A stretch of 64,000 nucleotides of DNA from Bacteroidota bacterium (GCA_016787485.1 JAEUUL010000009.1:62001-126000), one strand, 5' to 3'; positions 9,303 through 54,013 are shown, numbered from the stretch's first letter. Translations and numbers: made by a program. The notes: a model not told the origin generated them from the letters alone.

Positions 9303-10166
9303 TCAGAGCATATGGGTTTTCATGCTGATATCCAGGGCTTTTACGCTGTGTGTGAGATAACCCAGAGATATAAAATCCACACCAGACTGGGCATATTCTA
9401 CCAGATTGTCCAGATGTATACCACCACTGGCTTCGGTTTCAGCCCGTCCGTTTATGCGTTTCACGGCCTCTTTGCACTGTTCCGGGGTATAATTATCCAG
9501 CATAATCCGGTGCACACCGCCTGTCTGTAATACTTCGTCCACTTCCGCCAGATTGCGTGTTTCAACTTCTATGCGCAAATCCAGATTGTTCTGCTGCAAA
9601 TAAGCCAGCGTTCGTTCTATGGCCGGGCGAATTCCTCCGGCTGAATCCACATGGTTGTCTTTTAGCATAATCATATCATACAGTCCTATCCGGTGATTTG
9701 CACCGCCTCCTGTCTTTACGGCCCATTTCTCCAGCAACCGCAATCCGGGTGTGGTTTTGCGGGTGTCAAGAATCTGTGTATGATAACCTTTAAGCCGGTT
9801 CATTGCCTCAGCGGTTTGGGTTGCGATTCCACTCAGGCGCTGCATGAAATTCAACAATAGCCTTTCTGCGGCCAGCAAACTATGCACACTACCTTCAGCT
9901 TCCGCCACGATGGTACCTGAAGGAATATGGTCGCCATCCCGCTTGTGAACTGTAAGCGATATGCCAGCGTCCAACTGGTGCAAAATAACGCGAGCCAGCT
10001 CTATACCGGCCAGAACACCATCCTGCTTGAATAAAATACGTGAATGACCGATTGTACCCTGAGGAATTGAGGCGATGGAAGAGTGATCCCCATTGCCCAA
10101 ATCTTCGCGGAGACACAGATCGATGAGATGCAGAATTTCTTGACTGCGAAAATCCATAGGCTGCAA
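9303..10166 (-). CDS. nadC: Nicotinate-nucleotide pyrophosphorylase (quinolinate phosphoribosyltransferase)
   Basis: 287 residues, full length for the family. It converts quinolinate and PRPP to nicotinate mononucleotide in de novo NAD synthesis. Diagnostic motifs are EDLGNGDHSS near the N-terminus, LNFMQRLSGIAT, DTRKTTPGLRLLEKWAVKTGGG (R/K ligands for PRPP and quinolinate), the MLKDNH motif and the C-terminal SGGI and SLGYLTHS barrel ends. The first ATG (10166) or the one three codons later could be used. nadA and nadB are not in the window. The small DUF4783 gene just upstream is a common nadC neighbour in this phylum. Confidence 0.96.
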   Translation of the reverse strand: MQPMDFRSQEILHLIDLCLREDLGNGDHSSIASIPQGTIGHSRILFKQDGVLAGIELARVILHQLDAGISLTVHKRDGDHIPSGTIVAEAEGSVHSLLAAERLLLNFMQRLSGIATQTAEAMNRLKGYHTQILDTRKTTPGLRLLEKWAVKTGGGANHRIGLYDMIMLKDNHVDSAGGIRPAIERTLAYLQQNNLDLRIEVETRNLAEVDEVLQTGGVHRIMLDNYTPEQCKEAVKRINGRAETEASGGIHLDNLVEYAQSGVDFISLGYLTHSVKALDISMKTHML

Positions 10167-10174
10167 AATTGAGC

Positions 10175-10558
10175 CTATTTTTCTATTTTCAACTCATGAA
10201 TCCGGATGCTTTGTCCGGAACCCCGGTAAAAAAGACTCACTTTAAAGTCCTGTTGGGACGTTTTGAGGTTCATAATCAGAAAATGCGCGCCGTTATCACT
10301 GTTTCCCTGATTCTGCAATTTGCAGTCTGCAGGGGTGTTTTCCGAGAAAAAATCGGCCAGAATCATACGGGCCTGAGAACGGGAATACACACCCTCTTTT
10401 CCGGGGGTTGTCAATTGCACACTGGGGTTAAAATAGGCTGCAATTTCTTTGGTTTTGCCGGCACCGAACAGATTCAAAAGTTTATCACTGTCTGTCCGCA
10501 TTCCTGGGAAGATGGAAACCACAAGGGCAGAAAGGGCAATAAAAATCGGCGGCGCCAT
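10175..10558 (-). CDS. DUF4783 exported protein
   Basis: 127 residues with an N-terminal signal (MAPPIFIALSALVVSIFPG) and a small SnoaL/NTF2-like body: SDKLLNLFGAGKTKEIAAYF, VQLTTPGKEGVYSRSQA and LFYRGSGQSIRIHELKIEK at the C-terminus. This matches the DUF4783 family, which commonly sits beside nadC in Bacteroidota. The function is unknown. The gene ends 8 bases before nadC on the same strand, so the two probably share a message. An exact TACATTTG -7 box (10581-10574) lies 15 bases before the ATG. Confidence 0.75.
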   Translation of the reverse strand: MAPPIFIALSALVVSIFPGMRTDSDKLLNLFGAGKTKEIAAYFNPSVQLTTPGKEGVYSRSQARMILADFFSENTPADCKLQNQGNSDNGAHFLIMNLKTSQQDFKVSLFYRGSGQSIRIHELKIEK

Positions 10559-10607
10559 TTACCTTTTGTCAGCCAAATGTATGCCAAAAATCGGATTTGA
10601 CCTCAGT

Positions 10608-12818
10608 TCAGGGATTTTTTATCAGGGTTTCAATGGCAACAGACCCTCCGCTGCTCACTTCCAGCATATAGGATCCGGCGGCAATGCCGTTCAGGCTAAT
10701 CTCATGCTTACTTCCGGTTGATCGTGTTTCCAGCACGGTTTGTTCAAGTACATTGTATAATCGTATGGTGCAGGGTTTGCCGTGAAATGCGGACAGGTCC
10801 AGTTTCACCCTGTCTCTGGCGGGGTTGGGATACACACCTACCTTTCGGATATCGGACTTCGGCACGGAGGTGGTTTGGCTGCAATTGCCACCGGCTATGT
10901 GCGACATGTTTGAGAAATCGATATAGCAGGCCCAATTCGGATTGTCTGTAAACGGATTGCGGTTTCCCTGCTGGTTGACCACAAACTCGTGTCTTGCAAT
11001 TTCTCTGTTGGAGGGAGGAAAAGCCAGATTCCACCTTTTCAGAACAGCCTGATCCTGAAGCCGTGTATTGCCACCTGCGGTGCTTGGAATGAGAAAAGGA
11101 GCTGCCTGTTTGTGATAGGTAAGGCATTCATAAAAATTGCAGCGCGCCACCAAACCCTTCGCTTCATCACGGGGCTCATAAGCCATGTTTCCGCTGCTGT
11201 CTTTGCCGAGTTTACCGCCTTTGAAGGTAAAATCCACGGTTTTGAGTTTGTTGTATGGATAATTGCTGCGGATGGAATTGGCCTTATTCTGATGCACCAG
11301 CAGCAGCATATGCAAATCACTGTAATTGGCGCTGTCCTTGTTGGTTTCACCCATCCAGCTGTAAGGATAGGTATGTTCCCTGCTCATGGTATCAAATTTC
11401 AGCGGAGGCTTGAAGGTGTGGTGATGACCGCTGTAGTAGCATTCCACCACCTCTTTGCCTCCTGTGGTATCCCATGCCTCAAATTCCTCACCGATGGTGA
11501 CATCATAATCGCTGTAATCCACCTGATAGTGGGGTTTCACTCTGGCCTGCAATTTTGAAATAAATGCAGGATCTGAAGGCGCAATTCCACTGTAATAGCT
11601 GCCCGGATTGAGGCCTGTGGTTGTTATACTTGTAGTGCCAACGGGGGTTGCCAGATAATTCTCAAATCCTCCATAACCGTTAAATGCATAAAGTTTGGCA
11701 TAATATGTAGTATTGGCTTCAATCCGATCCAAAACCACTTCAGATTCAGGTCCCACCCACATAATCCGGTTATCCCCCACGACCATGCCACGTTCATAAA
11801 TTGTATTATCTGCGGGCGAAACAGCATTATCCACTTTGGACAACATCACCAGATATTTTTCCGCTTTTCCGGCAATGATATTCAGTTTCAAATACCAAGG
11901 GCGGGATTGCACCCAGTTAAAGGTGGTTGTTTCCATTACCGGCTCTGTAGCCAGATTTCCTTTTATGCTGTTGTAATTCAATTTAAAAGGCAAATTCAGA
12001 CTGTCGTTGGACAAAAGTGTTAGTACTGCTTTTCTGCTACCCGCTGCACCCAAAGGTCTGAACCGCACTTGCACTGTAGCTGAACTGCCCGCTTTCACTT
12101 TCAGTGGCAAAGAGTTTAAAACAACAAATTGCAATGCATCCGTACCACCAAAAATTGCACTTGTAATGATTAATGTATCTTTTCCGCCGGTATTTTTTAT
12201 TGTCAGATCCAGCAAGGTGTCATTACCGGGTTGTATTTCCTCATTATTCACACGCTGCTTGCCTTTCCACGAAATCTGCATGTCCGGTTTGGGCCCGGGA
12301 GCAGCTGGTTTTACCAGAATATCGTCAAGAGAAATGTTCCAACCGGAAACCTTCTGGGTATAGTAAAACCGTACATAACGTGATGCGGGTTTTAACCGAA
12401 CCAATTCTGTTGTGTGTACCTTGGTCAGGTTGCTGCCGTCAAATACCTTTACCGTTGTCCACAAAGAACCTGTTGTGCTTTCCTGCACAGTAAAAGTACC
12501 CTGATAGGGAACAGCATTGCCGGTATGTCTGATGGAAAAACTCACAGTATCCGCAACCCCGGAAAACTGAACCTGCACGTAATCACCTGTACCGTCCAGT
12601 CTCAATGCCTGCGGTGCACTCTTGTAATAATTGAAGGAGGTATACACTTTGGTACTGCTGCCTGCAGACAAATAATGCTTCCAGCCGGCTGGCGGATATT
12701 TCACCAGATCCACATCCCAGAAAGAGGGCAAAATTGCCTGGGCCTTTAGTTTAAAGGGGAAGGAGTGTAAGGCGAACAGCAATAACAGCCAACTAAATTG
12801 TTTTACGATTTGGTTCAT
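10608..12818 (-). CDS. Secreted endonuclease I with type IX sorting domain
   Basis: About 736 residues from the ATG at 12818, which begins a clean signal peptide (MNQIVKQFSWLLLLFALHSF, ending LKAQA). The order is a beta-rich/choice-of-anchor region (about 25-190), a CARDB/Ig-like domain (DTLLDLTIKNTGGKDTL), a fibronectin-like segment, then an endonuclease I domain (about 425-650) with SYYSGI, SREHTYPYSWMG, SDLHMLLLVHQNKANSIRSN and PPSNREIARHEFV followed by QGNRNPFTDNP. The C-terminal ~75 residues are a type IX sorting domain (KVGVYPNPARDRVKLDLSAF). The likely role is extracellular DNA or RNA degradation for nutrients. The gene follows the lamin-tail gene with only 5 bases between stop and start. 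Confidence 0.88.
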   Translation of the reverse strand: MNQIVKQFSWLLLLFALHSFPFKLKAQAILPSFWDVDLVKYPPAGWKHYLSAGSSTKVYTSFNYYKSAPQALRLDGTGDYVQVQFSGVADTVSFSIRHTGNAVPYQGTFTVQESTTGSLWTTVKVFDGSNLTKVHTTELVRLKPASRYVRFYYTQKVSGWNISLDDILVKPAAPGPKPDMQISWKGKQRVNNEEIQPGNDTLLDLTIKNTGGKDTLIITSAIFGGTDALQFVVLNSLPLKVKAGSSATVQVRFRPLGAAGSRKAVLTLLSNDSLNLPFKLNYNSIKGNLATEPVMETTTFNWVQSRPWYLKLNIIAGKAEKYLVMLSKVDNAVSPADNTIYERGMVVGDNRIMWVGPESEVVLDRIEANTTYYAKLYAFNGYGGFENYLATPVGTTSITTTGLNPGSYYSGIAPSDPAFISKLQARVKPHYQVDYSDYDVTIGEEFEAWDTTGGKEVVECYYSGHHHTFKPPLKFDTMSREHTYPYSWMGETNKDSANYSDLHMLLLVHQNKANSIRSNYPYNKLKTVDFTFKGGKLGKDSSGNMAYEPRDEAKGLVARCNFYECLTYHKQAAPFLIPSTAGGNTRLQDQAVLKRWNLAFPPSNREIARHEFVVNQQGNRNPFTDNPNWACYIDFSNMSHIAGGNCSQTTSVPKSDIRKVGVYPNPARDRVKLDLSAFHGKPCTIRLYNVLEQTVLETRSTGSKHEISLNGIAAGSYMLEVSSGGSVAIETLIKNP

Positions 12819-17602: not shown

Positions 17603-19612
17603 ATGAAAACGCAATTTCACATTCTTGCCATATGCTCGGCTTTTGCACTGTTCATGCCAGCTTCTGCCCAGTGGATTAAGGTAACCCCCAATACCGGAAA
17701 CGTAACCTGCCTTTATGCAGGTTCAAATGGCATATATGCCGGGTTGAACAAACCGCTTCATTATCTCTTTCGCAGCACAGACACAGGAAAAACCTGGACT
17801 CAACTACCCGTAACACCCTCAAGCATAAATAGCATTTGTGAAATGGATGGATGCTTATTTGTTAACGATGCCACTTCAGACAGGGTCTATTATTCATTGG
17901 ACAAAGGGCAGCAATGGAGCTATGGCACAATGGCCGGAGTGACCAAAGTGTTTAGTGTGACCCCTGTCAATCATACACTGGTGTCAGCAACAGATGCAGG
18001 ATTATTCAGGAGCATAGACTCTGGTAAAAACTGGAGTCTGAGTGAGAATTCAGGAACTTTCAGGGAAGTGATTACCACTGGCAACCGGATACTGGCTGCA
18101 GGCGTGTCTGGAATAAAATATAGTACGGACAACGGGCTGAATTGGACAAAAACACATACTGATGCTGCTTACTCCATTTATGCAGACGGCAGATTTGTTT
18201 ATGCCGCCAACAATACAGTTGCCCTGGGTGTGGTGGTCAGTACTGACTCTGGTAACACATGGAAACAATACAGTGCGGGATTGCCATCCAACAATGGCCC
18301 CAGAGGATTTACCAAAATGGGTGATACCCTATACTGCGTAATCTATGATGAGGTGTTTAAGAGCTTTGATACCGGAAAATCCTGGAAATCGATGGGGAGA
18401 ATCGGATTCACATACAATGCATCAGACATCGAAAGTTATGCCGGAAAATTGTTTGTATCATACAACAGTGCGGATTTATATGGCGGAATTTACCAGTGGA
18501 CCGAAGGCAGCCGCTGGCATCATGCGGGCCTCCCAATCATCAAACCGGAACGGATGGTAACCTATGGCGACACGGTCGGTTTTTTATACCCGGGGTTGGT
18601 TTGGAGTGCAGATCGCGGCATGAAATGGAATACCGGGGGAACAGGCCCGGGCACTCAATCCGGCTTTAAGAAGATTGAAAATGTGCCCTATCTGTTTGGA
18701 AGCAGCGGAGTATATATTTCTGCAAATGGAGGGCAGAACTTTACTCAATTATACAATATCAATACATACGATATTGAAAAGTTGGGAAACACCACATTCC
18801 TGACATCAACAAACACAACCTGGAAGCGGTCAGCGGGCGGATCATTGAATCCGATACCGGCTCTGGGAGGTGTGTATCTCGGAAAAATGCTCACCCACAA
18901 TGGCAGGATATTTATCGCCAATCGTTCCTTTTCAGACGATTCCTATTACTCTGAAGATACCGGTAAAACGTTCAAAGTATTGCAGGATTCGCTGTTTAAA
19001 AATTTAATTTTTACAGGAAATATTGGCAATGATTTGTATGCACTCAATTTTGAGAAGGGGAATATAAATTCTGTAATTAAAAGCACTGATGATGGCTTTA
19101 CATGGAAAAGAAAAAACAAGGGTTTACCCCAGCTTTATGCGAACAATCTTCTCATTTGGAAGGGCAAGCTTCTTTTGGTTTCAAACAAAGGATTGCATGT
19201 GTCTGATGATGGAGGTGAATCATGGCAGGAGGCCAATGCCGGAATTCCATTTAATCCACCCAACATTTCTGACATATGCGGAGATGATTCTTTTTTGTAT
19301 GTTTCCTCACCCAGTTTTGGCATTTACCGGGGAAATTTTTCAAACGGTGTCAGTAAACGAATTGAAGAGAATTCAACATTGAAAAATATTCGTGTGTATC
19401 CCAATCCGGGCAACCGTGTATTTTACATTTCCGGATTTAATACACCATTGGAATTTACAATTTTCGATACAAAAGGCAGGCCTATACCTGCAACAACAAA
19501 ACGTATGGAAAATGTGTATGCGATTCAACTGGAATATGCTTCACCGGGCATTTACATTTTACAAATCACTGAAAACAATTTCCGCAAATTTGTGCAAATT
19601 GTGCAGGAATAA
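17603..19612 (+). CDS. Secreted Asp-box (sortilin-like) repeat protein with type IX sorting domain
   Basis: About 669 residues from the ATG at 17603, which starts a signal peptide (MKTQFHILAICSAFALF...ASAQW). The body is built of about eleven Asp-box-type repeats of the form S-x-D-x-G-x-x-W: STDTGKTW, SLDKGQQW, SIDSGKNW, STDNGLNW, STDSGNTW, SFDTGKSW, SADRGMKW, SANGGQNF, SEDTGKTF, STDDGFTW and SDDGGESW. This predicts one or two beta-propellers related to VPS10/sortilin or photosystem-stability-factor folds. The last ~75 residues are a type IX domain (NIRVYPNPGNRVFYISGF). It is probably a cell-surface or secreted binding protein. An in-frame upstream ATG at 17564 would not give an N-terminal signal. 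Confidence 0.88.
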   Translation: MKTQFHILAICSAFALFMPASAQWIKVTPNTGNVTCLYAGSNGIYAGLNKPLHYLFRSTDTGKTWTQLPVTPSSINSICEMDGCLFVNDATSDRVYYSLDKGQQWSYGTMAGVTKVFSVTPVNHTLVSATDAGLFRSIDSGKNWSLSENSGTFREVITTGNRILAAGVSGIKYSTDNGLNWTKTHTDAAYSIYADGRFVYAANNTVALGVVVSTDSGNTWKQYSAGLPSNNGPRGFTKMGDTLYCVIYDEVFKSFDTGKSWKSMGRIGFTYNASDIESYAGKLFVSYNSADLYGGIYQWTEGSRWHHAGLPIIKPERMVTYGDTVGFLYPGLVWSADRGMKWNTGGTGPGTQSGFKKIENVPYLFGSSGVYISANGGQNFTQLYNINTYDIEKLGNTTFLTSTNTTWKRSAGGSLNPIPALGGVYLGKMLTHNGRIFIANRSFSDDSYYSEDTGKTFKVLQDSLFKNLIFTGNIGNDLYALNFEKGNINSVIKSTDDGFTWKRKNKGLPQLYANNLLIWKGKLLLVSNKGLHVSDDGGESWQEANAGIPFNPPNISDICGDDSFLYVSSPSFGIYRGNFSNGVSKRIEENSTLKNIRVYPNPGNRVFYISGFNTPLEFTIFDTKGRPIPATTKRMENVYAIQLEYASPGIYILQITENNFRKFVQIVQE

Positions 19613-19696
19613 ACAAGCAATACGGGTATTGTATCAGGCATCCCATCCGTAGTTTATTAACGGGACCGAAGAATACGCGGCAGAGGTATCCGGTCT

Positions 19697-19832
19697 GCGC
19701 AAATCCGTTCAGCGGATTACTTATCAAACCCGCGCCTGCGTTCCACTTCGGCCCGTTCATTCATCCCGAAGCTCCGCTGCGCTGCGTTTGGGGATGAATT
19801 CGACCAGCGCAAATCCGTTCAGCGGATTTGCG
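19697..19832. repeat. Inverted-repeat cluster between convergent genes
   Basis: The 228-base gap between two convergent genes (19613-19840) holds no gene. It contains two copies of a hairpin motif: GCGCAAATCCG-ttcag-CGGATT at 19697-19718, and at 19808-19832 a perfect 10-bp stem (CGCAAATCCG / CGGATTTGCG) around the same ttcag loop. Between them lies another inverted repeat, ATTCATCCC (19759-19767) with GGGATGAAT (19791-19799). This looks like a REP/BIME-style repeat; it could also stop transcription from both sides, although there are no T-runs. Confidence 0.6.
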
Positions 19833-19840
19833 GGTCTCAT

Positions 19841-20929
19841 TCACATCAATCTCTGATAGGCGCGCCACCATCGGTCGGGCATTTCGTCTTCGCACACCAT
19901 TTCATAGTCTTTGTAACTGCAGCCGATAAAAAAAGTATGCTTTTCGTACGGATGGGGTATTTCCATCCACCAGCGGTTGCTTTTGCGGCTTTTATAAAAT
20001 ACAATCTCGTGTCCGGTAGAACTCAGTCGATTCCGGTAAATGAGAAAATCGCTGTGATTATGTACCGGATGGTCATAAAACCGTGCTGTAACGCCTTCTA
20101 TAAAATACCAGACCATTTGAGCCAGCAGCACATGCGTGGTTTGAGACGGCTCCTCCTGGTTTAACCCATAAAAATAAGCGGAACTGAGTTTATTGCTGAT
20201 ACCGGCATAGCGGCAAATCCTTGCGGCCTCCTCTGCATAGAGTCCGTTCGGAGAATTGCGCCATGTACCGGGGGCATCGCTGCTGCGGATCGCATTCATA
20301 TCAAACATAAGCATGTGGGCACTGCGCAGTATAGGCTCTGTCTCTTCGATTGCTGCCCGTATTTCACCCAACCTGTGGTTCTCGAAATACATTTTGTCAA
20401 GCAGGGCAGCTGTCTGATTGCTTATGTAATAATTCTGTGTTCCGATAAAATCAATATTAAACAAATAACCTGGTTTCTCTATCAGAATCTGCCTGAGGGG
20501 TGAACCTTCTTCCAAATCCACATCCGGGCTTACTTTTACAATTTCAACCGGCTCTTTGCTTTGCCTGTAACCTTTGTATTGTGCATAGATTCCGGAACGT
20601 CTGTTCCCGAGCACAATCACAACACAATCCTGCTGCAACAATTCACCCAGAGCCTCCGACATGGCAAACTGCTGCTTCACTTCGTCACCGGTATTTACCA
20701 GGTTGCCCAGGTCAGCCACTTCCAGGTTATCAAACCGCCAGAACAAGCCGTAAAGCTGTTTGCGCACTTCATCGGCCGGATAACCATCGCCCATCATAAC
20801 AATTTTCTTGTTTCTGAGATTGGGAAAGGCATGTGCATGTACCGAAATCCTGCCACCGAAACTTTCTTCATTGCCACGGTGGGGTGCCCAAATCTCCTGG
20901 GGAACAGGGGTAAAAAATGCATCAAGCAT
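19841..20929 (-). CDS. Arginase-family (formimidoylglutamase-like) protein with degenerate metal site
   Basis: About 362 residues of the ureohydrolase fold in the form peculiar to Bacteroidota: VRKQLYGLFWRFDNLEVADLG, then NIDFIGTQNYYISN, LMFDMNAIRSSDAPGTWRNS, AEEAARICRYAG and VWYFIEGVTARF. Canonical ureohydrolases bind two Mn through GGDHS and SFDxDxxDP. Here those places read LGNRRSG and MFDMNAIRSSDAP, so most ligands are missing and agmatinase or arginase activity is doubtful. The start is the ATG at 20929 (MLDAFFTPVPQEIW); nine further codons are open upstream. The N-terminus agrees with relatives I know of. The true substrate is unknown. Confidence 0.75.
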   Translation of the reverse strand: MLDAFFTPVPQEIWAPHRGNEESFGGRISVHAHAFPNLRNKKIVMMGDGYPADEVRKQLYGLFWRFDNLEVADLGNLVNTGDEVKQQFAMSEALGELLQQDCVVIVLGNRRSGIYAQYKGYRQSKEPVEIVKVSPDVDLEEGSPLRQILIEKPGYLFNIDFIGTQNYYISNQTAALLDKMYFENHRLGEIRAAIEETEPILRSAHMLMFDMNAIRSSDAPGTWRNSPNGLYAEEAARICRYAGISNKLSSAYFYGLNQEEPSQTTHVLLAQMVWYFIEGVTARFYDHPVHNHSDFLIYRNRLSSTGHEIVFYKSRKSNRWWMEIPHPYEKHTFFIGCSYKDYEMVCEDEMPDRWWRAYQRLM

Positions 20930-21023
20930 AGATGTGCAAGTAAATGCCAGATACATTCAATTGGCAGAAAACAAATACACATGAACAATTTTCTGCACGA
21001 TATACCGTGCGCATCTTTGCGGT

Positions 21024-25610: not shown

Positions 25611-26001
25611 CCACCTTTTTTCGCCAAAAAAGGTGGAGCCAAAAAGGCAGACGGCCCAAGGCGCCTTTCTCAGCACATGCCTGCCCGGGCAGCTTGCCGG
25701 CTTGCGCCCTCCACTTCGTTGTGGGCTGCGCTGCCCTCCTCGCGCTGCAGGGCCGTCTCTCAGGGACGCAAGACGGGTTACCGGTATTTTGGGGATATTC
25801 AAGCCACCGGCAATTGCTGTTTTGCCAGCCCGGCCTCAGGGAATGAAGGCTGATAAGTGCCGTAAACCGGCGCTAAATGCCGAGGAAGCTCCGAGTGTGC
25901 GAGGAGATCGCCGATGGCATTCGACGGATTGCCAACGTTCAGACTTCAGGCCCTGCAGCCTTGACTTTTTGCTCCACTTTTGGGTCAAGCCAAAAGTGGA
26001 A
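25611..26001. repeat. Hairpin-ended dispersed repeat, longer copy
   Basis: The 898-base stretch 25287-26184 has no convincing gene. After the sbtA terminator and an AT-rich segment comes a ~390-base element. Its left end is an 11-bp perfect hairpin (CCACCTTTTTT / AAAAAAGGTGG, 25611-25636). Its right end is another 11-bp hairpin (TCCACTTTTGG / CCAAAAGTGGA, 25973-26000). Each hairpin is followed inward by a related GTGGAGC(C)AAAAAG sequence in opposite orientation, so the ends are terminal inverted repeats. The right 171 bases (25831-26001) recur at 47791-47961 with about 85% identity and no gaps. Open frames across it are not conserved between the copies. 26002-26184 shows nothing. Confidence 0.75.
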
Positions 26002-45954: not shown

Positions 45955-46338
45955 ATGGCCAAGAATCTCAATTTGGATGGTACCTTTAAAGATGGCAAAA
46001 ACACCATCCAATTAAAAATACCTGTTTGGTTATTCGAAGATGATGGAACTTGGGTAGCATATTGCCCTTTATTAGATTTAAGTGGTTACGCCAATGATGA
46101 ACTGGCCGCAATGGAATCCTTCAAAGTTGTTTTGGGTGAATTTCTATCCTATACAGTACATAAGAAAACCCTGGAAAAAGTATTAAATGATTTAGGTTGG
46201 ACAAAACTTAAAAAGTCAAAAATTATTGCTCCGTCAATTTATGATATACTTTCAAAGAATGAGAATGCCCGTGAAATAGCGGAAAACTATCCATTTACTC
46301 AATCTTTTGAAGATATTAGAATTCCAGAATTCGCATAA
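45955..46338 (+). CDS. HicB-like antitoxin
   Basis: 127 residues with the HicB partial RNase-H fold: TIQLKIPVWLFEDDGTWVAY, then CPLLDLSGYANDELAAMESF. The C-terminal extension (EKVLNDLGWTKLKKSKIIA and onward) is longer than in short HicB proteins and may form the DNA-binding part. The next gene, overlapping by one base (TAATG), is a HicA toxin; antitoxin first is the reverse of the E. coli order but common. The local sequence is AT-rich compared with the core genes. The 270 bases before it (45685-45954) hold no gene; a near-match -7 box (TAATATTG) lies about 22 bases upstream. Confidence 0.8.
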   Translation: MAKNLNLDGTFKDGKNTIQLKIPVWLFEDDGTWVAYCPLLDLSGYANDELAAMESFKVVLGEFLSYTVHKKTLEKVLNDLGWTKLKKSKIIAPSIYDILSKNENAREIAENYPFTQSFEDIRIPEFA

Positions 46339-46556
46339 TGGTTAAACGAATTTCTAATATATCCTTAGCAGATATTCGAAATTTGTTAAAAAAGCACAAT
46401 TGTAAATTGATTAGAACAAGAGGCGGCCATGAAACTTGGACCAGGGCAGATTTATTGCGGCCAATCATCATTCAGACACATGTTGATCCAGTACCAAAGC
46501 ATATAGTAAAACAAATTCTCAGGCATTTGAGTTTAGATATAAGTGCACTGGGATAA
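46338..46556 (+). CDS. HicA-like mRNA interferase toxin
   Basis: 72 residues, the normal size of HicA. The double-stranded-RNA-binding-like fold carries the catalytic His in RTRGGHETW (H31), followed by IIIQTHVDPVPKHIVKQILRHL, which matches the family's H-x-x-x-x-x-P-x-G/H-T-x-x-x-I-x-K pattern loosely. Free toxin would cleave mRNA and arrest growth until neutralised by the HicB-like partner just upstream. Confidence 0.82.
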   Translation: MVKRISNISLADIRNLLKKHNCKLIRTRGGHETWTRADLLRPIIIQTHVDPVPKHIVKQILRHLSLDISALG

Positions 46557-46563
46557 GCATCTC

Positions 46564-47616
46564 TCAATAGTAGTTCACAGTAGCCTGGAGCTGAGCTGTA
46601 AACTTGTACAAATCGTCTAATGAAGTCAATTCTGATCTAATTTCCTTCTTTTCCTTATCAAACGTACCAATAAACTTTCTGTTTCCATCGAGATATACTC
46701 TGCAAATAGGCTTCCTATTATTATCATCAAAGAACACTGCAAAATATGACTGTGCATCTCTCCAGGTTATTCTACTACTGTCAACTACTGCTCTCATAAT
46801 TGCTTTGATGATATAGAATGCCTCCATTTCCTCAACAGTTGTATCGACTTTGCCTTTACTTTCAGATGATACTATTGGTGTATTCTCCTTCTGCTCCTGT
46901 TCTTGTTCCCTATTCAATGCTGCTTTCAATCTATCACTTACGGAGTCAGTGATTATTTGTTGAGCTGTTCTTTGTACTAACGGACGAAATTGCTCCATCA
47001 ATTTGGACGTAAGCCTGCCATTATAAATTTGCTTTGTAAAGTATTGAACTAATTCATCTGATGGATTAGACAGTTCACCTGCAATGACCGTGCGTAACTG
47101 GTTCATATACTTCATTTCATTAGCACTATTCAATATTCCATCTAAATTGAAATGAGCCTTATGAAACTCCTTTAGTTTTTCAATCTGAATATCCTTAATT
47201 GTATCTATAGTAAATTCAAAAAATGGCTTCTCGTCCATTTTATTGACTTGCTCCAAGTCAGTATAGAATCTGTATTGAATTCCATTCGTCAAAATTCCAA
47301 ATTTCGCCTTAGATACGTGAAAATATCTTAAAAGTTGGCCATCGTGTAAATCCAAATTCTTACTCCAGTGTTTACACTCAACCAATATTATTGGTTGTCC
47401 ATCTTTAAAAATAGCATAATCTATCTTTTCACCTTTTTTCGTTCCAATGTCTGTAATATACTCAGGGACAACTTCAAGAGGATTGAACACGTCATAACCC
47501 AATGACTGAAGAAACGGCATAATAAACGCATTTTTTGTAGCCTCTTCGGTCAATATACTATCTTTTAATTTGTGCACTCTATCACCAAGAGTACGAACAA
47601 CATCTTTGAATTCCAT
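46564..47616 (-). CDS. Stand-alone type I restriction HsdR-N-type nuclease-like protein
   Basis: 350 residues. The first ~130 match the HsdR N-terminal domain: FIMPFLQSLGYDVFNPLEVV, then the PD-(D/E)xK site D66 and E80-C-K82 (KIDYAIF...ILVECKHW) and GQLLRYF. The rest is a linker and a small C-terminal domain (ITWRDAQSYFAVFFDDNNRK). No helicase motor, HsdM or HsdS is present, so it is not a complete type I system. Such orphan proteins are annotated widely as 'type I restriction enzyme R protein N-terminus' and may be defence nucleases, but this is unproven. It has its own complete promoter and converges on hicA with 7 bases between. Confidence 0.75.
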   Translation of the reverse strand: MEFKDVVRTLGDRVHKLKDSILTEEATKNAFIMPFLQSLGYDVFNPLEVVPEYITDIGTKKGEKIDYAIFKDGQPIILVECKHWSKNLDLHDGQLLRYFHVSKAKFGILTNGIQYRFYTDLEQVNKMDEKPFFEFTIDTIKDIQIEKLKEFHKAHFNLDGILNSANEMKYMNQLRTVIAGELSNPSDELVQYFTKQIYNGRLTSKLMEQFRPLVQRTAQQIITDSVSDRLKAALNREQEQEQKENTPIVSSESKGKVDTTVEEMEAFYIIKAIMRAVVDSSRITWRDAQSYFAVFFDDNNRKPICRVYLDGNRKFIGTFDKEKKEIRSELTSLDDLYKFTAQLQATVNYY

Positions 47617-47665: not shown

Positions 47666-47790
47666 TATTGGATTTTTATAAAAGAGAAACAACGTCAAAA
47701 CCTATGACTGGATTCTTGCTCAAATAGCAAATGCATCAACCCTAACCAATTAAGTTGAAAGCAACCTTCTTAGGCTGATAATCGGGGATC

Positions 47791-47961
47791 CGGCCTCAGG
47801 GAATAAAGGCTGATAAGAGCAGCAAGCCGGCGCGAAATTTCAAGGAAGCTCCGAGGAATCGAGGAGATCACCGCAGAAATTCGACGGGTTGCAATCGTTC
47901 AGACTTTAGAACCTGAAGCCTTGACCTTTTGCTCCACTTTTGGGTCAAGCCAAAAGTGGAA
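47791..47961. repeat. Hairpin-ended dispersed repeat, truncated copy
   Basis: 171 bases aligned without gaps to 25831-26001, about 145 identical (85%). It ends in the same 11-bp hairpin TCCACTTTTGG / CCAAAAGTGGA. The left half of the 25.6-kb element is missing: similarity begins sharply at CGGCCTCAGG. It lies just outside the ssrA-integrated element. The rest of the gene-free stretch 47617-48348 holds the promoter above, the displaced ssrA terminator, attL and arm-type repeats. Confidence 0.8.
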
Positions 47962-47966
47962 AAAGC

Positions 47967-47995
47967 AAAAAAAGCCCTGAAATGAGGGCTTTTTT
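47967..47995 (-). terminator. Original ssrA terminator, displaced
   Basis: AAAAAAGCCCT (47968-47978) pairs with AGGGCTTTTTT (47985-47995) around gaaatg. It directly abuts the left 15-bp att copy, in the same position relative to that copy as the terminator now following tmRNA at the right end. Before integration it would have ended ssrA transcription. Confidence 0.7.
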
Positions 47996-48010
47996 GTGGA
48001 GCTGGGGGGA
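47996..48010. repeat. attL core copy
   Basis: GTGGAGCTGGGGGGA, identical to 53648-53662 inside tmRNA. The match ends on both sides (T against G to the left, C against A to the right). Confidence 0.85.
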
Positions 48011-48041
48011 CTAAATATTTCTTTTTCGGGGTTATCTCAAC

Positions 48042-48147
48042 TTAACTAAACCTAACAGGCTCAATGGTACTATACTTTTGACAGCCATATTTATCATTCG
48101 GATATGTACAGATTAATTAACTAAACCTGTACCCCTAACAGTACCCC
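48042..48147. repeat. Left-end arm-type repeats
   Basis: TTAACTAAACCT occurs at 48042-48053 and again at 48117-48128 (75 bases apart). Directly after the second copy are CTGTACCCC (48127-48135) and CAGTACCCC (48139-48147), 12 bases apart. The same pair at the same spacing occurs at the right end (53571-53591). These are candidate arm-binding sites for the integrase or the excisionase-like protein. Confidence 0.55.
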
Positions 48148-48348
48148 CTTCAAAACAATTTTTCCCCGGGTGTGTGCGCGCCAGTCCGGCGGTTTAAAGA
48201 ACCCTGCAGACGGCAAAACACATCCCCTACCCGGGTCAAATGAAGGGGATAGCAACTTTTTGCTGGAATATTACACGAAACACAGCCAAACGGTGAATTC
48301 CGGTCGCTGCAGCTGTATGGCCAGGCCTATGGGGGTTAAAAGGTTCCC

Positions 48349-48663
48349 CTATTGTTTCAGGCGGGGTTTTAACATCTCTGCCAGCCTGCCGGGCAGGTTA
48401 GTTTCCAGGGGCGCAGCCCGTTTGATTTGAATTTGCAGCGCCGGTTCCTGTTCAGATTCAAATTTCTGCAGGGGTTTGGGCAGAACGTAAGGAATCAGGC
48501 GGATAACAATATTCAGCCGTTCGGCGGGTGACATGGTGGAAAGGGTATCCTGCAGGCTGTCCAGTTCTGCACAGACAACGGCGGACAGCATTTCACGCAC
48601 CTCGGCGGTGGTTTTGTTAGGGGTTCCGGCCTTTCGGCCCCCTGTTTTTAAACGACTAGACAT
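48349..48663 (-). CDS. Small basic protein of element (KTGGRKAGTPNKTT type)
   Basis: 104 residues. A basic N-terminus (MSSRLKTGGRKAGTPNKTT) is followed by a helical segment (AEVREMLSAVVCAELDSLQD, then MSPAERLNIVIRLIPYVLP). Proteins with this G-R-x-x-G-x-P-N-K-x-T start recur in Bacteroidota mobile elements and prophages, where they are hypothetical or likened to small DNA-binding/terminase-small-subunit-like proteins. I cannot assign a function. It is the last gene of the element and follows the exonuclease by 23 bases. Confidence 0.6.
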   Translation of the reverse strand: MSSRLKTGGRKAGTPNKTTAEVREMLSAVVCAELDSLQDTLSTMSPAERLNIVIRLIPYVLPKPLQKFESEQEPALQIQIKRAAPLETNLPGRLAEMLKPRLKQ

Positions 48664-48686
48664 ACTCTATTAGTTTCTATAATAGA

Positions 48687-49373
48687 TTATTTGAATAACT
48701 TTCGGAAAAACCTGCTAAAGGCATTTTCATTACTCGATTTGGATGAATCTTCGAATCCTTTGCTCAAACTAGCTAACAAATCATTTCTAATCGAATTACC
48801 TATGGTGAACTCTGGCACCTTCATTTTACTCTTTGACAACTTCAGAATGGTTTTTAATGTGGCCTTACAATCACCAAATGCAGAATGGTCTCCACCCACT
48901 AACTTTTGATGTAGGTAATCTCCATATTTGTCCGACCAAACGCCTTTAAATTTTGAATATTGAATCATAACACACTGTGATTCAAATGCGGGCAGTTCTA
49001 AACCCTCGGCGTCAAAAGTCTGTTTTAACAAACGTAAATCGAACTCGGCATTGTAAATCAAGACAATCTTATCTTGTAGAACCTTTAGAATGTCGTTGTA
49101 AATTTCACTCAACGCCGGTGCATCTGCCAAAGATTCAGCTGTAATCCCATGTATATCATATGCCTCTTTGGGAATATGAATAGAATCTGTAAGTTTTATA
49201 CGGGTGTTTATAAGTGGTTTCTTATCTAAATCAATAACTGAAATCTCAATAACACGGTCATCATTCCCTATACCTGTGGTTTCAGTATCAAGAATTACAT
49301 AGTTATTGGGTGATTCTAGAACACCTTGCGCCCATTTTATTGCATCATTGCAATCTTGAATGTATTGATTCAT
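48687..49373 (-). CDS. DEDDh 3'-5' exonuclease (DnaQ-like)
   Basis: 228 residues. Exo I is DTETTG (D29, E31), Exo II NAEFD and Exo III HSAFGD, so the catalytic set D-E-D-H-D is complete; between them is AYDIHGITAESLADAP. It is a single-domain nuclease like the polymerase III epsilon subunit or RNase T, without a polymerase-binding tail. The ATG is preceded by a complete promoter (TTTG at 49408-49405, 19 bases, TAAATTTG at 49385-49378) that overlaps the end of the Rep-like gene. The message would be leaderless and independent of the rest of the element. It is probably cargo, with a role in DNA repair, replication or defence. Confidence 0.85.
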   Translation of the reverse strand: MNQYIQDCNDAIKWAQGVLESPNNYVILDTETTGIGNDDRVIEISVIDLDKKPLINTRIKLTDSIHIPKEAYDIHGITAESLADAPALSEIYNDILKVLQDKIVLIYNAEFDLRLLKQTFDAEGLELPAFESQCVMIQYSKFKGVWSDKYGDYLHQKLVGGDHSAFGDCKATLKTILKLSKSKMKVPEFTIGNSIRNDLLASLSKGFEDSSKSSNENAFSRFFRKLFK

Positions 49374-49377
49374 AAAT

Positions 49378-49408
49378 CAAATTTACAATTTCCCCCAATG
49401 AATCCAAA
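49378..49408 (-). promoter_or_regulatory. Promoter of the element's exonuclease gene
   Basis: Minus strand TTTG - 19 bases - TAAATTTG, ending 4 bases before the ATG at 49373; it overlaps the last codons of the Rep-like gene. Confidence 0.68.
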
Positions 49409-50633
49409 CGGGAAACAAGGTAGGCCCAGGGTACAAACGTTGTTCCCGCCGTTTCCGGCTGTTCCGTGGGTTGCTGTCCATGTTCCTGCACCTGTGGGCT
49501 GATTCCTTCCCAGCTGTCTTGTCACTACAGAATTTAGAATTCTTTCTTTGGTGTGAAATATCCCGTCCGCAACTTTGGCAGTACCTGTGAACTGTGGATG
49601 TAGAACATTCCGTTTCCTTACTATCTATATAAGTGTAAGAATCAGGAAAGTTGCAAAATACGGGTGTGATGGTTCGGTCTATTACACCCCCGTAAAATTC
49701 GGGAAAGTTGCTGTTTGGTTTTTCATTGAACAGGACATTCCATTTTTCGGCAATCAGAGACTTAATCTGCCCATGATAGTCCGCCGTTTTCTCGCTGTAC
49801 AGCCTAGCAATCGCCTCAAATTGTGCGCCAAATAGGTCCGTGTTTCGTTTATACAGGTCTACCCAATAATCAGGATTCATACCATTAATAAAGTTTTCTC
49901 TGCTATCCCTTCGTTTAATGGACCCCGCGTCAATCAAACCCGCTGGACACAATAAAACACGGTCCCAGGTGACTAGTAATTTGGTAAGTAACGGAGCATA
50001 CCATGCCCCCCCAACAATATCCTGCAATGTCCATTTATCGCGGCCTAACAAATACTGCATCCGGTCCACATGAATTTCAAACCGCAGCAAGTATTCCCCT
50101 ATTTCATTTTGCCTGCCCTTGTCATACAGTTTAACCCGGTATTGTGAAAATGAATAGGAACGCAGCAACCCCCGGCCATTGAATGTTTTTTGTTCATGGG
50201 TTCTGCCTGATAAGGTTTTGCAACCTTCAATTATAACCGCTGCAGGTAAGGGGGTTAAAATGTTTATTCCAAACTCTACTGAACAAACGGCCCACTGTAA
50301 GGGGTGAAAATTAAAAGTTTGGCAGAATAGGAATATCCATCTCCGCAGGTCGCAGAATGTAAAATCCTGCCAATTTCTCCCATTTCCTGCAGACTTGTGG
50401 AAACTACCTTTCACCTCTATCCGAATCGGTTCAGTGGGGTGGGTCCAGATAAGTATTTTCAGGTCATACCATTGGGCATAATTAAGACAGTATCCGCCCC
50501 GTGTTAAAATTACTTCCCCAGTTCGGTCATTAATACGCTGGACAAAATCAAGTTGTGAAGACTGTAGTAATTTCGGCCCTAATTCTTTTGCAACCTGCGG
50601 CGTTACTGGCTCAATGTGTATATAGTCAAACAT
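49383..50633 (-). CDS. Candidate replication initiation protein of the element
   Basis: About 416 residues from the ATG at 50633 (MFDYIHIEPVTPQVAKELG); nine more codons are open upstream. The middle contains IRIEVKGSFHKSAGNGRNWQDF, then a VEFGINIL strand, QYRVKLYDKGRQ and YLLRFEIHVDRM, a pattern seen in replication initiators of small phages and plasmids (Rep_trans/phage replication protein type) with a Tyr-Asp-Lys motif. Near the C-terminus is a four-Cys zinc-finger-like motif (CQSCGRDI...KFCSDKTAGK...RCRN). No helicase motif is seen. It is probably the element's own initiator after excision. The assignment is by pattern only. Confidence 0.55.
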   Translation of the reverse strand: MFDYIHIEPVTPQVAKELGPKLLQSSQLDFVQRINDRTGEVILTRGGYCLNYAQWYDLKILIWTHPTEPIRIEVKGSFHKSAGNGRNWQDFTFCDLRRWIFLFCQTFNFHPLQWAVCSVEFGINILTPLPAAVIIEGCKTLSGRTHEQKTFNGRGLLRSYSFSQYRVKLYDKGRQNEIGEYLLRFEIHVDRMQYLLGRDKWTLQDIVGGAWYAPLLTKLLVTWDRVLLCPAGLIDAGSIKRRDSRENFINGMNPDYWVDLYKRNTDLFGAQFEAIARLYSEKTADYHGQIKSLIAEKWNVLFNEKPNSNFPEFYGGVIDRTITPVFCNFPDSYTYIDSKETECSTSTVHRYCQSCGRDISHQRKNSKFCSDKTAGKESAHRCRNMDSNPRNSRKRREQRLYPGPTLFPVWIHWGKL

Positions 50634-50728
50634 AACGCAATACTTTATTATCATTGTCATACTGCAGGCAACTGCCCGCGGTGACTAATAAGAACGGGTG
50701 CAAGTGTTTAGCGGCTCTTGCACTTTTG

Positions 50729-51178
50729 TTATCCAGCGGTTTCATTCTTCTGAATGTTTGATATGATACCACGAATGATTTTTTCCAATTTGGCCCGGTC
50801 CTGGAAATACCAACCTGTGAAATAGTAAACCATCAGACGACGGTCCCCATCCATCCAGCGGAACAGGCAAAGGGAATTCACCTTTTTACCTTGCCTGAAT
50901 TCGTAATCATTGCCATACTGCCAGTTCTGCCATCCGGTTTCCCTCAGGCCAGTATAGAAACTGTATTTCCCAGCCTTTTTGGGTCCGTGAATGATGGTAT
51001 ATGCCCCATTCTGTTTGGGTGCATTGGTTTGGGTATATTCCACCTTCAGCCATTCAGGCAAACGGGCAAAATGCACCCGGGCCGGGTCCTTTTCATACCT
51101 GCCAGTAATTGTATGAGTGTAACTGTAGGCCCACACGATAGCAGGCATAGGATAACTAATAAGAACTTTGTTTTCCAT
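50729..51178 (-). CDS. Element-encoded hypothetical protein
   Basis: 149 residues, soluble, rich in Tyr and Trp (PAIVWAYSYTHTITGRYE, GLRETGWQNWQYGNDYEF, MVYYFTGWYFQDRAKLEKII). No family was recognised. It starts 2 bases after the stop of the HTH gene, so the two are translated from one message. The position between the excisionase-like and Rep-like genes suggests a replication or regulation accessory, which is inference only. Confidence 0.6.
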   Translation of the reverse strand: MENKVLISYPMPAIVWAYSYTHTITGRYEKDPARVHFARLPEWLKVEYTQTNAPKQNGAYTIIHGPKKAGKYSFYTGLRETGWQNWQYGNDYEFRQGKKVNSLCLFRWMDGDRRLMVYYFTGWYFQDRAKLEKIIRGIISNIQKNETAG

Positions 51179-51180
51179 GT

Positions 51181-51471
51181 TTACCCCCTGTTCTTATATG
51201 TTTGCATGGCCTGCAGCGCGGATTCCACTTCATGCGATTTGTAACGGATACGGCCGGATATTCGATACCCTTTTACGATACCCGTTTTAGTCCAGCTGTG
51301 CAGCGTTACAAGGCTGACTTGCAACCGGGCTGCAGTTTGTTTCCGGGTTAGCCATTCCTGATTTGCCGTCGGCGTATCAGGTTGTTTCAGACCTGCCAGT
51401 TCAGAACGAACGGCGGCGGTTACAATTTCCCGCAGGTCTGCGGGGGTAGTCAGTATTAATTGATTTGTCAT
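51181..51471 (-). CDS. HTH DNA-binding protein, excisionase-like
   Basis: 96 residues from the ATG at 51471 (an in-frame TTG lies 12 bases upstream). The second half is a MerR/HTH_17-type winged helix: EWLTRKQTAARLQVSLVTLHSW, then TKTGIVKGYRISGRIRYKSHEV. This is the usual excisionase (Xis) fold of Bacteroidota integrative elements, and the integrase is two genes upstream in the same direction. It would bend DNA at the arm sites to favour excision, or act as the element's repressor. Confidence 0.78.
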   Translation of the reverse strand: MTNQLILTTPADLREIVTAAVRSELAGLKQPDTPTANQEWLTRKQTAARLQVSLVTLHSWTKTGIVKGYRISGRIRYKSHEVESALQAMQTYKNRG

Positions 51472-51534
51472 AATGGGGAGCAAATTGTCCCCACTTTACA
51501 GTCTGTACCTACTTACTGTACCGGTACAATTTTA

Positions 51535-52206
51535 CTATTCATGCCCATCTTTTAACATTTGGTTTATTTTGTTTGTGATACTATCAATTCCCAAACTTTC
51601 AAAATATGTGCGGATATATTGTAAATCTTCACGTCTGAAATCTTTTGACACTACCTTTCCAACTGGATTAGAAAAAAACTGTTGTGCCTTAGTGGGATTA
51701 TCACCGGTCAAAAAATTGACGAACTTTCCCCATTCTGTTTTATTACTAGTTGCATTTAATTCAGTCAAAATCAAATACAGCGCTAATCTTTGCCTCGGCC
51801 TTGTGAATTCTTTGATTCTTTCGGTTACAGGTTCCTTTGTTTCCAATGGTTTCAATACTGCATAATCCTGCGGATTAAGTGAATCTACAAATTCAATATA
51901 TGGGGTCAACACGCCTTCAAACTCCTTATATTCTGATTCATTCATGATTTGTAAATTATGCAGATTTTTAAGTTCTTTTTTCAATTTGGTGAAAAGATAC
52001 GGAATTTCCATAGGGGGAATTTGCCTGACAATTTCTCTGATTTCGCTAATTGTCTCGTTCACTACTTTTTGTGATTCAGTATAGGTATGTATTCTGTGAA
52101 AGTTTGGGTCATTCACTGAACTTAAAACATATCTCTTTTTAGCCAATATCCGATGCAACAATGTGCCGTAATAATTGATGCTCCGATATTTTAATATATC
52201 ACTCAT
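51535..52206 (-). CDS. Unknown protein translationally coupled to integrase
   Basis: About 223 residues starting at the ATG at 52206, which overlaps the integrase stop (ATGA). It is soluble and helical: NYYGTLLHRILAKKRYVLSS, QKVVNETISEIREIVRQIPP, TRPRQRLALYLILTELNATS and a C-terminal DLQYIRTYFESLGIDSITNKI. The C-terminal part vaguely recalls RteC-type regulators of Bacteroides conjugative elements, but I cannot support that call. The tight coupling suggests it works with the integrase, for example as a recombination accessory. Confidence 0.65.
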   Translation of the reverse strand: MSDILKYRSINYYGTLLHRILAKKRYVLSSVNDPNFHRIHTYTESQKVVNETISEIREIVRQIPPMEIPYLFTKLKKELKNLHNLQIMNESEYKEFEGVLTPYIEFVDSLNPQDYAVLKPLETKEPVTERIKEFTRPRQRLALYLILTELNATSNKTEWGKFVNFLTGDNPTKAQQFFSNPVGKVVSKDFRREDLQYIRTYFESLGIDSITNKINQMLKDGHE

Positions 52207-53519
52207 TTTGCAATCTTTAATTCGTTTGTATTTCTGTGTATCCACCAATCCCGCATTACTTCTGCAGATTTTTTCGGGGTAATCTTTATATAGTGGTAAA
52301 ATTGTTTCTCAGTAGTATGTCCGGTAATGGCCATAATCAAATTCACCGGCATTTCTGTAAGGAACATATTTGATGCAAATGACCGGCGGGCTGTATGGGT
52401 TGTGACCAATTGCCATTTTTTGTACTTTGTTGTCACTTCAAACCCACCTTTGGTTTTAGAAATGGAATACTCTGCCTGCAGCGAAGGCAACAATTGCGCG
52501 ATTTCTTTAAGGGCATCATTCAATTTCTGATTTGAAATGGCCTTAGGCCATTCAATACTTGAACCATTCCGGTACTTTGAGATAACACGTTCCAATGGTG
52601 GCAAAATGGGAATGACAACCTTTTTACGGGTTTTTTTTGTCTCAATTTCAATGTATTCACTATCTACTATTGCACGATGCAATTGGGTAAAATCACTGAA
52701 CCGCAATCCGGTCCAACACCCGATTAAAAACAAATCCCGCACCCGGTCCAAACCCGGGCGGCCTGAAAGGTTAAGGGTTTCCAATTCGTACAATTCTGAT
52801 TCAGTCAGGTATATGGCGTCTACTTCTTCTTTAGAAACCAAGAATCCCCTTTTCCTAAAGTCCTGATTTGTCTTTATACCCCGTTCATTGGCATCCCCCA
52901 TAATGTATTTCACATTTGAAATGTGTTTTGCCACAGTATTGCCATGATACTTTAGGTCTGCCTGTAGAAACTTCTTAAATGATTCGTAGAAAATCAGGTC
53001 TATATTATCCCATCTCAGGAATTTGCCTTTCTGACTGCTGTATTCTTTTAATACCCGCAAGGTTTGCAGCAGACTGATTCGGAAATGTCGGGAAATGGGT
53101 TTTTTTGTTTTGCCATTCGTCCGGTGTATGATATTCTCTGCTGTTTCTTTCCAGTAGGTAAACAAATCCTGCTCAGGGGCTGGTTTAACTACTTTAGGCC
53201 TGAATTGTTGCTCAATGGCATCTTTAATTTCCCAGGGCGTTGGTTCCCGGTCCAGCTCTGCAAATAGTCGCTGCGTAATCTTTTTAGCCTCAACAATGAT
53301 ATTATCCAGGGCGGTGTTAAACTCAGGGGATTCTTTGAACTGGATTGATTTGATAGTCCTTTGATAGTATTTTGATTTCGGGTCATTGCACCAATCTTTT
53401 GGAAATACACTCCGACCGGTGTAATACTTTGCCCGGTAATTCTGTGAACTGATTAAAAGGACTACAGCCGTTTTACCGGTAGCCTTTGGGTTTTTCAGGT
53501 AAAAATTGAACTCTGCCAT
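52203..53519 (-). CDS. Tyrosine site-specific recombinase (integrase)
   Basis: 438 residues. An N-terminal arm-type domain (FYLKNPKATGKTAVVLLISS), a core-binding SAM-like domain (about 118-215), and the catalytic domain with R273 (GCWTGLRFSDF), H375-x-x-R378 (HTARRSFASNM), H401 (ITGHTTEKQF) and the nucleophile Tyr410. It is of the Bacteroidota phage-integrase type (Phage_int_SAM_5-like). It lies next to the att copy in ssrA and would integrate and excise the element. An exact TAACTTTG box (53552-53545) is 25 bases upstream of the ATG, between the arm-type repeats and the gene, so integrase binding there may also repress its own transcription. Confidence 0.95.
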   Translation of the reverse strand: MAEFNFYLKNPKATGKTAVVLLISSQNYRAKYYTGRSVFPKDWCNDPKSKYYQRTIKSIQFKESPEFNTALDNIIVEAKKITQRLFAELDREPTPWEIKDAIEQQFRPKVVKPAPEQDLFTYWKETAENIIHRTNGKTKKPISRHFRISLLQTLRVLKEYSSQKGKFLRWDNIDLIFYESFKKFLQADLKYHGNTVAKHISNVKYIMGDANERGIKTNQDFRKRGFLVSKEEVDAIYLTESELYELETLNLSGRPGLDRVRDLFLIGCWTGLRFSDFTQLHRAIVDSEYIEIETKKTRKKVVIPILPPLERVISKYRNGSSIEWPKAISNQKLNDALKEIAQLLPSLQAEYSISKTKGGFEVTTKYKKWQLVTTHTARRSFASNMFLTEMPVNLIMAITGHTTEKQFYHYIKITPKKSAEVMRDWWIHRNTNELKIAK

Positions 53520-53544
53520 GGTGACGTTGTTAAGTAGAACAAAA

Positions 53545-53591
53545 CAAAGTTAAGTGAAATAAAGTGAAATCTGTACCCCATACTGTACCCC
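53545..53591. promoter_or_regulatory. Integrase promoter and right-end arm repeats
   Basis: The -7 box TAACTTTG (minus strand, 53552-53545). Directly upstream, AAGTGAAAT is repeated (53552-53560 and 53562-53570), then CTGTACCCC occurs twice, 12 bases apart (53571-53579 and 53583-53591), matching the left-end pair. Protein bound here would cover the integrase promoter. Confidence 0.55.
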
Positions 53592-53601
53592 AAAGACTAA
53601 A

Positions 53602-53638
53602 TAAAAAACAAAACCCTTATCCTGTAAGGGTTTTGTTT
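53602..53638 (-). terminator. Element-borne terminator of ssrA
   Basis: A 14-bp stem, AAACAAAACCCTTA (53606-53619) with TAAGGGTTTTGTTT (53625-53638), followed on the minus strand by a T-run (bases 53608-53602). It begins 7 bases after the tmRNA 3' end and replaces the terminator now at 47967-47995. Confidence 0.8.
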
Positions 53639-53645
53639 AGTTTGG

Positions 53646-54013
53646 TGGTGGAGCTGGGGGGAATCGAACCCCCGTCCAGAGATGCGAGTACTGGCGCTTT
53701 CTACATGTTTATACCTGTTTGTTGTCGGGTGGCGGCAGGTACAGGAAAAACCTTATGTCACCTTATCCGGCGTGTTAATGGCTCACCTGGCCGGTGTGAG
53801 TGGCCATACCCGTGTCGGTCGATTGCTCCTGATCACCCCTGACACAGGCAGGAGGGGTGGGAACAACTGGATCTGTTAATTACTCGAATTAAGCAGCCAG
53901 GGCGTAGTTAGATTCGCCTCTTAAAAGTTTGAACATTGAGATTAAAGAGCCAACATCCAAAGCTCTACATGCTTACACCGTATTCAATCATCCTGTCAAA
54001 TCCGGTCAACCCC
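53646..54013 (-). ncRNA. ssrA: tmRNA
   Basis: 368 bases. The 5' end GGGGUUG (54013-54007) pairs with CAGCUCC (53656-53650) over 7 bp with two G-U pairs, followed by A and encoded CCA (53648-53646). The T-arm GGGGG-TTCGATT-CCCCC is just before it, and GGATTTGACAGG follows the 5' acceptor strand. The tag reading frame (53918-53889) encodes GESNYALAA then stop, the normal -ALAA degradation tag. It rescues ribosomes stalled on broken mRNA. An integrative element occupies its 3' end, but the mature RNA sequence appears intact. Confidence 0.95.
53648..53662. repeat. attR core copy within tmRNA
   Basis: GTGGAGCTGGGGGGA, the 3' acceptor strand and part of the T-arm of tmRNA, identical to 47996-48010. 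Confidence 0.85.

Follow-up and report, generated by a model that had tools for sequence, protein, structure and literature searches.

A 64,000-nucleotide stretch from a Bacteroidota bacterium (GCA_016787485.1 JAEUUL010000009.1:62001-126000; hereafter the window, with positions counted from its first letter) carries a 5.65-kb element between two 15-bp attachment (att) copies at the 3' end of the tmRNA gene (ssrA). This element is a member of a family, scattered across Bacteroidota, that shares a core of integrase (Int), helix-turn-helix (HTH) and replication (Rep) genes and carries swappable cargo. It has these features of that family: an Int-X-HTH-Rep core, in which X is a variable position, att at the tmRNA end, and twin arm sites. 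We consider it likely to be a small integrative, self-replicating, helper-mobilised element whose Rep has a Rep_trans fold.

The element and its site in ssrA

The window has exactly two copies of GTGGAGCTGGGGGGA, one at 47996-48010 and one at 53648-53662, with a spacing of 5,652 bp, where 0.15 matches (up to 2 mismatches) are expected by chance. This confirms the duplication of the tmRNA 3' end described in a first-pass annotation of this DNA; it is exact, and there is no other copy in the window. No third att-like copy with 3 mismatches or fewer was found in the 44.0-48.1 kb part of the window, and an older tenant at ssrA marked by such a copy was rejected. Between the att copies lie seven genes, all on the minus strand, as annotated before; open reading frames and family matches supported the integrase, the HTH/excisionase-like gene and the DEDDh exonuclease. 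The features are, from the ssrA side to the far side:

53646..54013, minus: tmRNA gene (ssrA), the intact target gene, with a 3' end that appears to come from the element (ARAGORN and full-length Rfam match)
53648..53662, minus: att copy of 15 bp at the ssrA 3' end
53606..53638, minus: 14-bp perfect hairpin with U-run, putative replacement ssrA terminator carried by the element
53571..53591, no strand: twin arm-type repeat on the ssrA side, CTGTACCCC twice with period 12 (copies at 53571 and 53583)
52203..53519, minus: tyrosine integrase, 438 aa (PF00589 and PF13102, Phage_int_SAM_5), of a family kept in relatives
51535..52248, minus: 237-aa protein, encoded between Int and HTH at the variable position X, no family above cut-off
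51181..51483, minus: 100-aa HTH_17/excisionase-like protein; 38 of 40 Rep loci have a homologue 5' of Rep
50729..51178, minus: 149-aa protein, no family match
49383..50660, minus: Rep, 425 aa, predicted Rep_trans fold, C-terminal Cys-rich tail
48687..49373, minus: DEDDh 3'-5' exonuclease, 228 aa, probable accessory cargo (PF00929, RNase_T, 67 bits)
48349..48663, minus: 104-aa basic protein with a GRKAGTPNKTT motif
48127..48147, no strand: twin arm-type repeat on the far side, CTGTACCCC/CAGTACCCC with period 12 (copies at 48127 and 48139)
47996..48010, minus: far att copy of 15 bp, putative displaced fragment of the original ssrA 3' end
47968..47995, minus: hairpin with U-run outside the element, probably the original ssrA terminator (from the sequence; the layout matches unoccupied relatives)

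The tmRNA gene matched Rfam RF00023 with 125.8 bits. The junction on its side, CTCCACCACC, runs into the 14-bp perfect hairpin with its U-run, and the far-side junction, CTCCACAAAA, is followed by another hairpin-terminator; the hairpin at 47968..47995, folded with its flank, reached -14.4 kcal/mol. Among 16 related genomes in which the tmRNA end was read, the gene ends in CTCCAC (or TTCCAC) without an encoded CCA in 12 and encodes CCA in the other 4, so the CCA-less rule is not universal. A hairpin or inverted repeat is common 3' of CCA-less tmRNA ends in those relatives with enough downstream sequence. Because relatives have such a CCA-less end followed by a terminator, the far att copy and the hairpin after it seem to be the native ssrA end, now displaced, and its terminator, and the element looks to have supplied a new ssrA 3' end together with a new terminator. 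Empty ssrA sites were looked for, and several other genera of the same taxonomic family have a tmRNA gene with no integrase or Rep homologue nearby; these unoccupied sites are non-isogenic, and some lie on short contigs.

Family members across Bacteroidota and their Rep

With the window Rep as a single query, 15 of 395 Bacteroidota genomes gave matches; with a profile built from 17 Reps, 27 of the 395 did so, as did 8 of 108 genomes of the same order. In 40 loci with a long Rep (slightly fewer independent ones, as L161 and L164 duplicate L038 and L040), an HTH gene lies upstream on the same strand in 38 and an integrase is present in 33. Eight elements, 5,512 to 8,600 bp in size, are bounded by repeats overlapping a tRNA or tmRNA 3' end. 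Their targets are tmRNA (the window and L033), tRNA-Met (L041 and L143) and the tRNAs for Cys, Leu, Lys and Phe, the tRNA-Phe element (L083) being from a genome, G498, of the same taxonomic family as the window. These core-sharing relatives, seated with repeats at ssrA and tRNA genes, bear out the first-pass proposal that an integrative element with defined ends sits in the 3' end of ssrA. The seven-gene order, which it had suggested as a search target, was not found in full elsewhere; what is conserved is the Int-X-HTH-Rep core, and the rest varies. In L035 the integrase adjoins tmRNA, but there is no convincing second repeat.

The bounded elements also share repeats inside their ends. A twin repeat of period 11-12 is common to both ends in 7 of the 8, the window element included, against 0-1 of 200 random pairs drawn from the same loci. 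In all 7 the distance from twin to att is about 55-76 bp on the tRNA/tmRNA side versus about 107-150 bp on the other side. The motif GTACCCC occurs 11 times on the two strands of the window, and 4 of these occurrences are in the twin repeats. Most simply, the twin repeats would be arm-binding sites of the integrase.

The first-pass annotation had called the 425-aa gene Rep-like. Its fold and motifs support this name, although no clear Pfam, NCBIfam or PHROG family match does, and a PDB sequence search gave no match. An AlphaFold model built on a 20-sequence alignment (mean predicted local distance difference test score 79.9) confidently matched only RepDE and RepSTK1 in Foldseek, with E about 1e-6. 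The model aligned with RepDE at Z 11.9 over 245 residues and with RepSTK1 at Z 11.3, and the next fold (TBP) scored 6.7. The RepDE active site comprises R189, Y191 and K193 with the metal-binding carboxylates D46, D142 and E214 (PMC4797284). In the Rep family alignment K177, Y179, K181 and E195 are invariant or nearly so, E129 is nearly invariant and D12 is present in most members; together these residues fit the Rep_trans active-site pattern, K-x-Y-x-K included (PMC4797284). Plasmid pHsw3 (6,969 bp), with a methylase and an HNH gene, encodes a full-length relative of Rep (88 bits); no other annotated gene of that plasmid is a candidate initiator. Because of the predicted fold, the kept active-site residues and this sole visible initiator, we conclude that Rep would work like a Rep_trans initiator, though it is not filed as a member of PF02486.

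Neither Rep nor the 237-aa, 149-aa and 104-aa proteins matched a Pfam or NCBIfam family above cut-off or a PADLOC model. Relatives hold unrelated proteins at the X position, and a common family for them was discarded, with no link to the 237-aa protein among the matches listed and no Pfam family. The 104-aa protein has homologues downstream of Rep in two loci (L042 and L033) and weakly matches one PHROG without an assigned function; L083 encodes a protein of similar appearance that falls just short of the DUF5681 cut-off. The HTH protein weakly matches a terminase small-subunit family, a match that reflects a generic HTH.

Two variant loci were also observed. In Xanthomarina and Aequorivita elements (L159, L160, L166 and L169; about 8592-10878) a 746-761-aa protein occupies the Rep slot, which is a swap of the replication module; those of L159 and L160 are BT4734-like/DUF3987 proteins, the latter also with a primase C-terminal domain. 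At L097 (G474, 1824-6349) a tmRNA, an element end with twin repeats and a downstream GmrSD restriction gene were found without an integrase, possibly a decayed tenant at ssrA.

Mobility and alternative explanations

From the architecture, the repeats and the predicted fold we infer how excision and integration, rolling-circle replication and mobilisation could proceed. Int would bind the twin arm sites and recombine the 15-bp core, with the HTH protein (or X) as a candidate directionality factor. Integration would rebuild the ssrA 3' end and provide a new terminator, so that the host keeps its tmRNA. After excision, Rep may nick an origin through Tyr179 and drive rolling-circle replication of the circle. 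A conjugative system in the same host would probably carry the nicked strand into a recipient cell, and Rep would serve it as a relaxase of the MOBT kind. The cargo would probably be the exonuclease, possibly a defence gene.

The element has its own integrase and att repeats, which are features of integrative mobilizable elements (IMEs). In family scans its seven genes included no mating-pair apparatus, and none of the seven proteins matched a relaxase family, MobP included. The first-pass annotation had deduced from the missing relaxase that a helper must be needed. That deduction does not hold as worded, since the Rep_trans fold class includes MOBT relaxases. Rep_trans proteins are the relaxases of Tn916-type integrative and conjugative elements (ICEs) and, by deletion test, of one streptococcal IME (PMC7563843). 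Given that such proteins can be relaxases, 'no relaxase' is an unsafe statement, and by analogy Rep may double as the element's own relaxase, which makes a helper-conjugation route plausible without a separate one.

Several points weigh against the helper-mobilised reading. The active-site residues of Rep were assigned by alignment, motif order and literature rather than by residue-level superposition. The PF02486 (Rep_trans) profile was matched neither by the window Rep nor by any of 16 relatives. Folding identified no origin of transfer (oriT) or replication origin, and the 338-bp noncoding far end folded no better than shuffled sequences (z -1.3). The window genome, which is 95.8% complete, lacks TraM (PF12508), the one conjugation marker searched for, and no more than 6 of 17 carriers have it, which makes the helper hypothetical. 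That no helper is resident does not speak against mobilisation in the past. Finally, the exonuclease has no known defence role, and its PADLOC matches reflect the generic DEDDh domain.

An alternative that we regard as unlikely is an integrative plasmid, that is, a rolling-circle plasmid that gained an integrase, is maintained by replicating and integrating, and spreads by transformation or accident with no dedicated transfer route. The pHsw3 plasmid, where a Rep relative is the only visible initiator beside a methylase and an HNH gene, speaks for it, and it would fit all data if no transfer route exists. The phylum-wide spread, the conserved HTH-Rep pair and the swapped cargo suggest, however, regular transfer.

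Less probable is a phage satellite, in which Rep, after excision, produces DNA copies, single- or double-stranded, for packaging by a helper phage, in the manner of a phage-inducible chromosomal island (PICI) or a satellite of those single-stranded DNA (ssDNA) phages of Bacteroidota whose initiators are likewise of the Rep_trans type. The layout Int-X-HTH-Rep-cargo recalls PICIs, and a DUF3987 protein can occupy the Rep slot, as in the Xanthomarina and Aequorivita elements, where one of the two proteins scanned has a primase C-terminal domain. Defence genes are frequent in satellites (PMC11389934), and phiCjT23, a temperate ssDNA phage of Flavobacterium, has a Rep matching a Rep_trans structure (PMC9719478). 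Yet no packaging, capsid or terminase gene was recognised and no convincing PHROG head or packaging match was obtained, with three small proteins left without a function. The family profile recognises neither the phiCjT23 Rep nor that of FLiP, and relatedness to these ssDNA phage Reps was rejected on that ground. IMG/VR yielded no member (none confirmed with the window Rep, none with a narrow HTH alignment), and Zot is present in 1 of 17 carrier genomes, as a borderline match. The phage-satellite resemblance suggested in the first-pass annotation therefore gained no positive evidence, the sole match in a phage collection being an unannotated 28-kb faecal scaffold. On that scaffold (L051, MT835707), recorded as 'phage', relatives of HTH and Rep lie at 18984-20996, and it looks more like a Bacteroides conjugative element than a phage. 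More doubtful still is that the whole family consists of satellites of ssDNA phages, whose Rep-made circular ssDNA is packaged by finnlakevirus-like or filamentous helpers; if true, immunity genes would move between cells in particles with the same replication chemistry.

An immobile remnant of a larger element is very improbable: two core-region genes have no family match and transfer genes are lacking, but no core gene is interrupted, the arm sites are present along with the two att copies, and 5.65 kb falls within the 5.5-8.6 kb of the other bounded members.

The element can be set beside known systems. Like the streptococcal IME_oriT, it is small and has a tyrosine integrase, direct repeats and one Rep_trans-type protein but no mating apparatus; unlike here, IME_oriT insert in the oriT sites of ICEs rather than at tRNA/tmRNA 3' ends, and their relaxases match PF02486 (PMC7563843), which Rep here misses; the cargo of the present family is often defence-related. 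The initiator fold and active-site pattern are those of the pT181-family plasmids (RepDE, RepSTK1; PMC4797284), whereas identity is about 10-14% and Rep here belongs to an integrated element and has a Cys-rich tail. The mobilizable Bacteroides elements NBU1, NBU2 and Tn4555 share the tyrosine integrase and Bacteroidota hosts, and NBU1 and NBU2 sit at tRNA 3' ends, but they encode MobP relaxases, and NBU2 (11.1 kb) is larger (PMC5704250). PICIs and other satellites likewise combine Int, a small HTH regulator and a replication gene, and defence cargo is also found in satellites (PMC11389934), whereas here no packaging or phage-interference gene was recognised and the Rep is of another class. The phiCjT23-like phages are integrated elements of 6-8 kb with a Rep_trans-type Rep, but they use Xer/dif sites and encode capsid proteins (PMC9719478), and their Reps are not recognisably related by profile. 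Charybdis elements (PMC12324425), which have archaeal hosts and no recognisable replication gene, were dropped from the comparison.

No description of the family was found by title or abstract in the open-access literature, a weak absence. The parts and the principle are known; on this limited test, their combination seems to be undescribed, as do the family that spans the phylum and its initiator family, which had gone undetected. If our reading is true, small, modular elements seated at tRNA and tmRNA genes form a widespread class peculiar to Bacteroidota that ferries restriction systems and other defences against phages. Because present profile libraries miss the initiator, standard annotation shows no more than a 'hypothetical protein next to an integrase'. 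Excision, replication and transfer can be tested directly with the help of the Int-HTH-Rep core, the twin arm sites and the named Flavobacterium carriers, among them F. profundi TP390 and F. celericrescens TWA-26.

Cargo and neighbouring genes

Defence genes are concentrated on the cargo side. At a PADLOC threshold of E 1e-20 or better, 255 families were matched over 99 proteins (150 aa or longer) encoded in the 4.5 kb that follow Rep downstream, and 9 families over 75 proteins upstream of the integrase, outside the Int end; the counts are of families, not proteins, and related models inflate the 255. The contrast is large, and a smaller first control set likewise gave few PADLOC matches, mostly weak. 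The systems in the family's cargo include Druantia, Hachiman, type I, II and III restriction, and candidate systems. Named Flavobacterium genomes carry near-identical Int/HTH/HTH/Rep genes followed by differing cargo.

The DEDDh exonuclease is sporadic, with a homologue in 1 other of 57 related genomes (G452). There it directly adjoins tmRNA, and an HsdR_N-like homologue is on the same contig. The exonuclease is probably cargo of the window copy and possibly a defence gene.

Directly outside the far att copy the window has a 350-aa HsdR_N-like gene (46564-47616). One homologue of it lies inside the tRNA-Phe-bounded element of G498 (L083, 6022-7074), and another lies beside tmRNA together with the exonuclease homologue (L153). 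These positions hint that the exonuclease and HsdR_N-like genes both travel in elements that use ssrA or tRNA sites. To the left of this gene, two short open reading frames (45955-46556) look like a HicB/HicA toxin-antitoxin pair by eye only, the first having no Pfam match. A dispersed repeat of ~170 bp lies just outside the far att copy at 47790-47963; about ten other full or partial copies are present in the genome at 78-91% identity, one of them in the window at 25830-26001.

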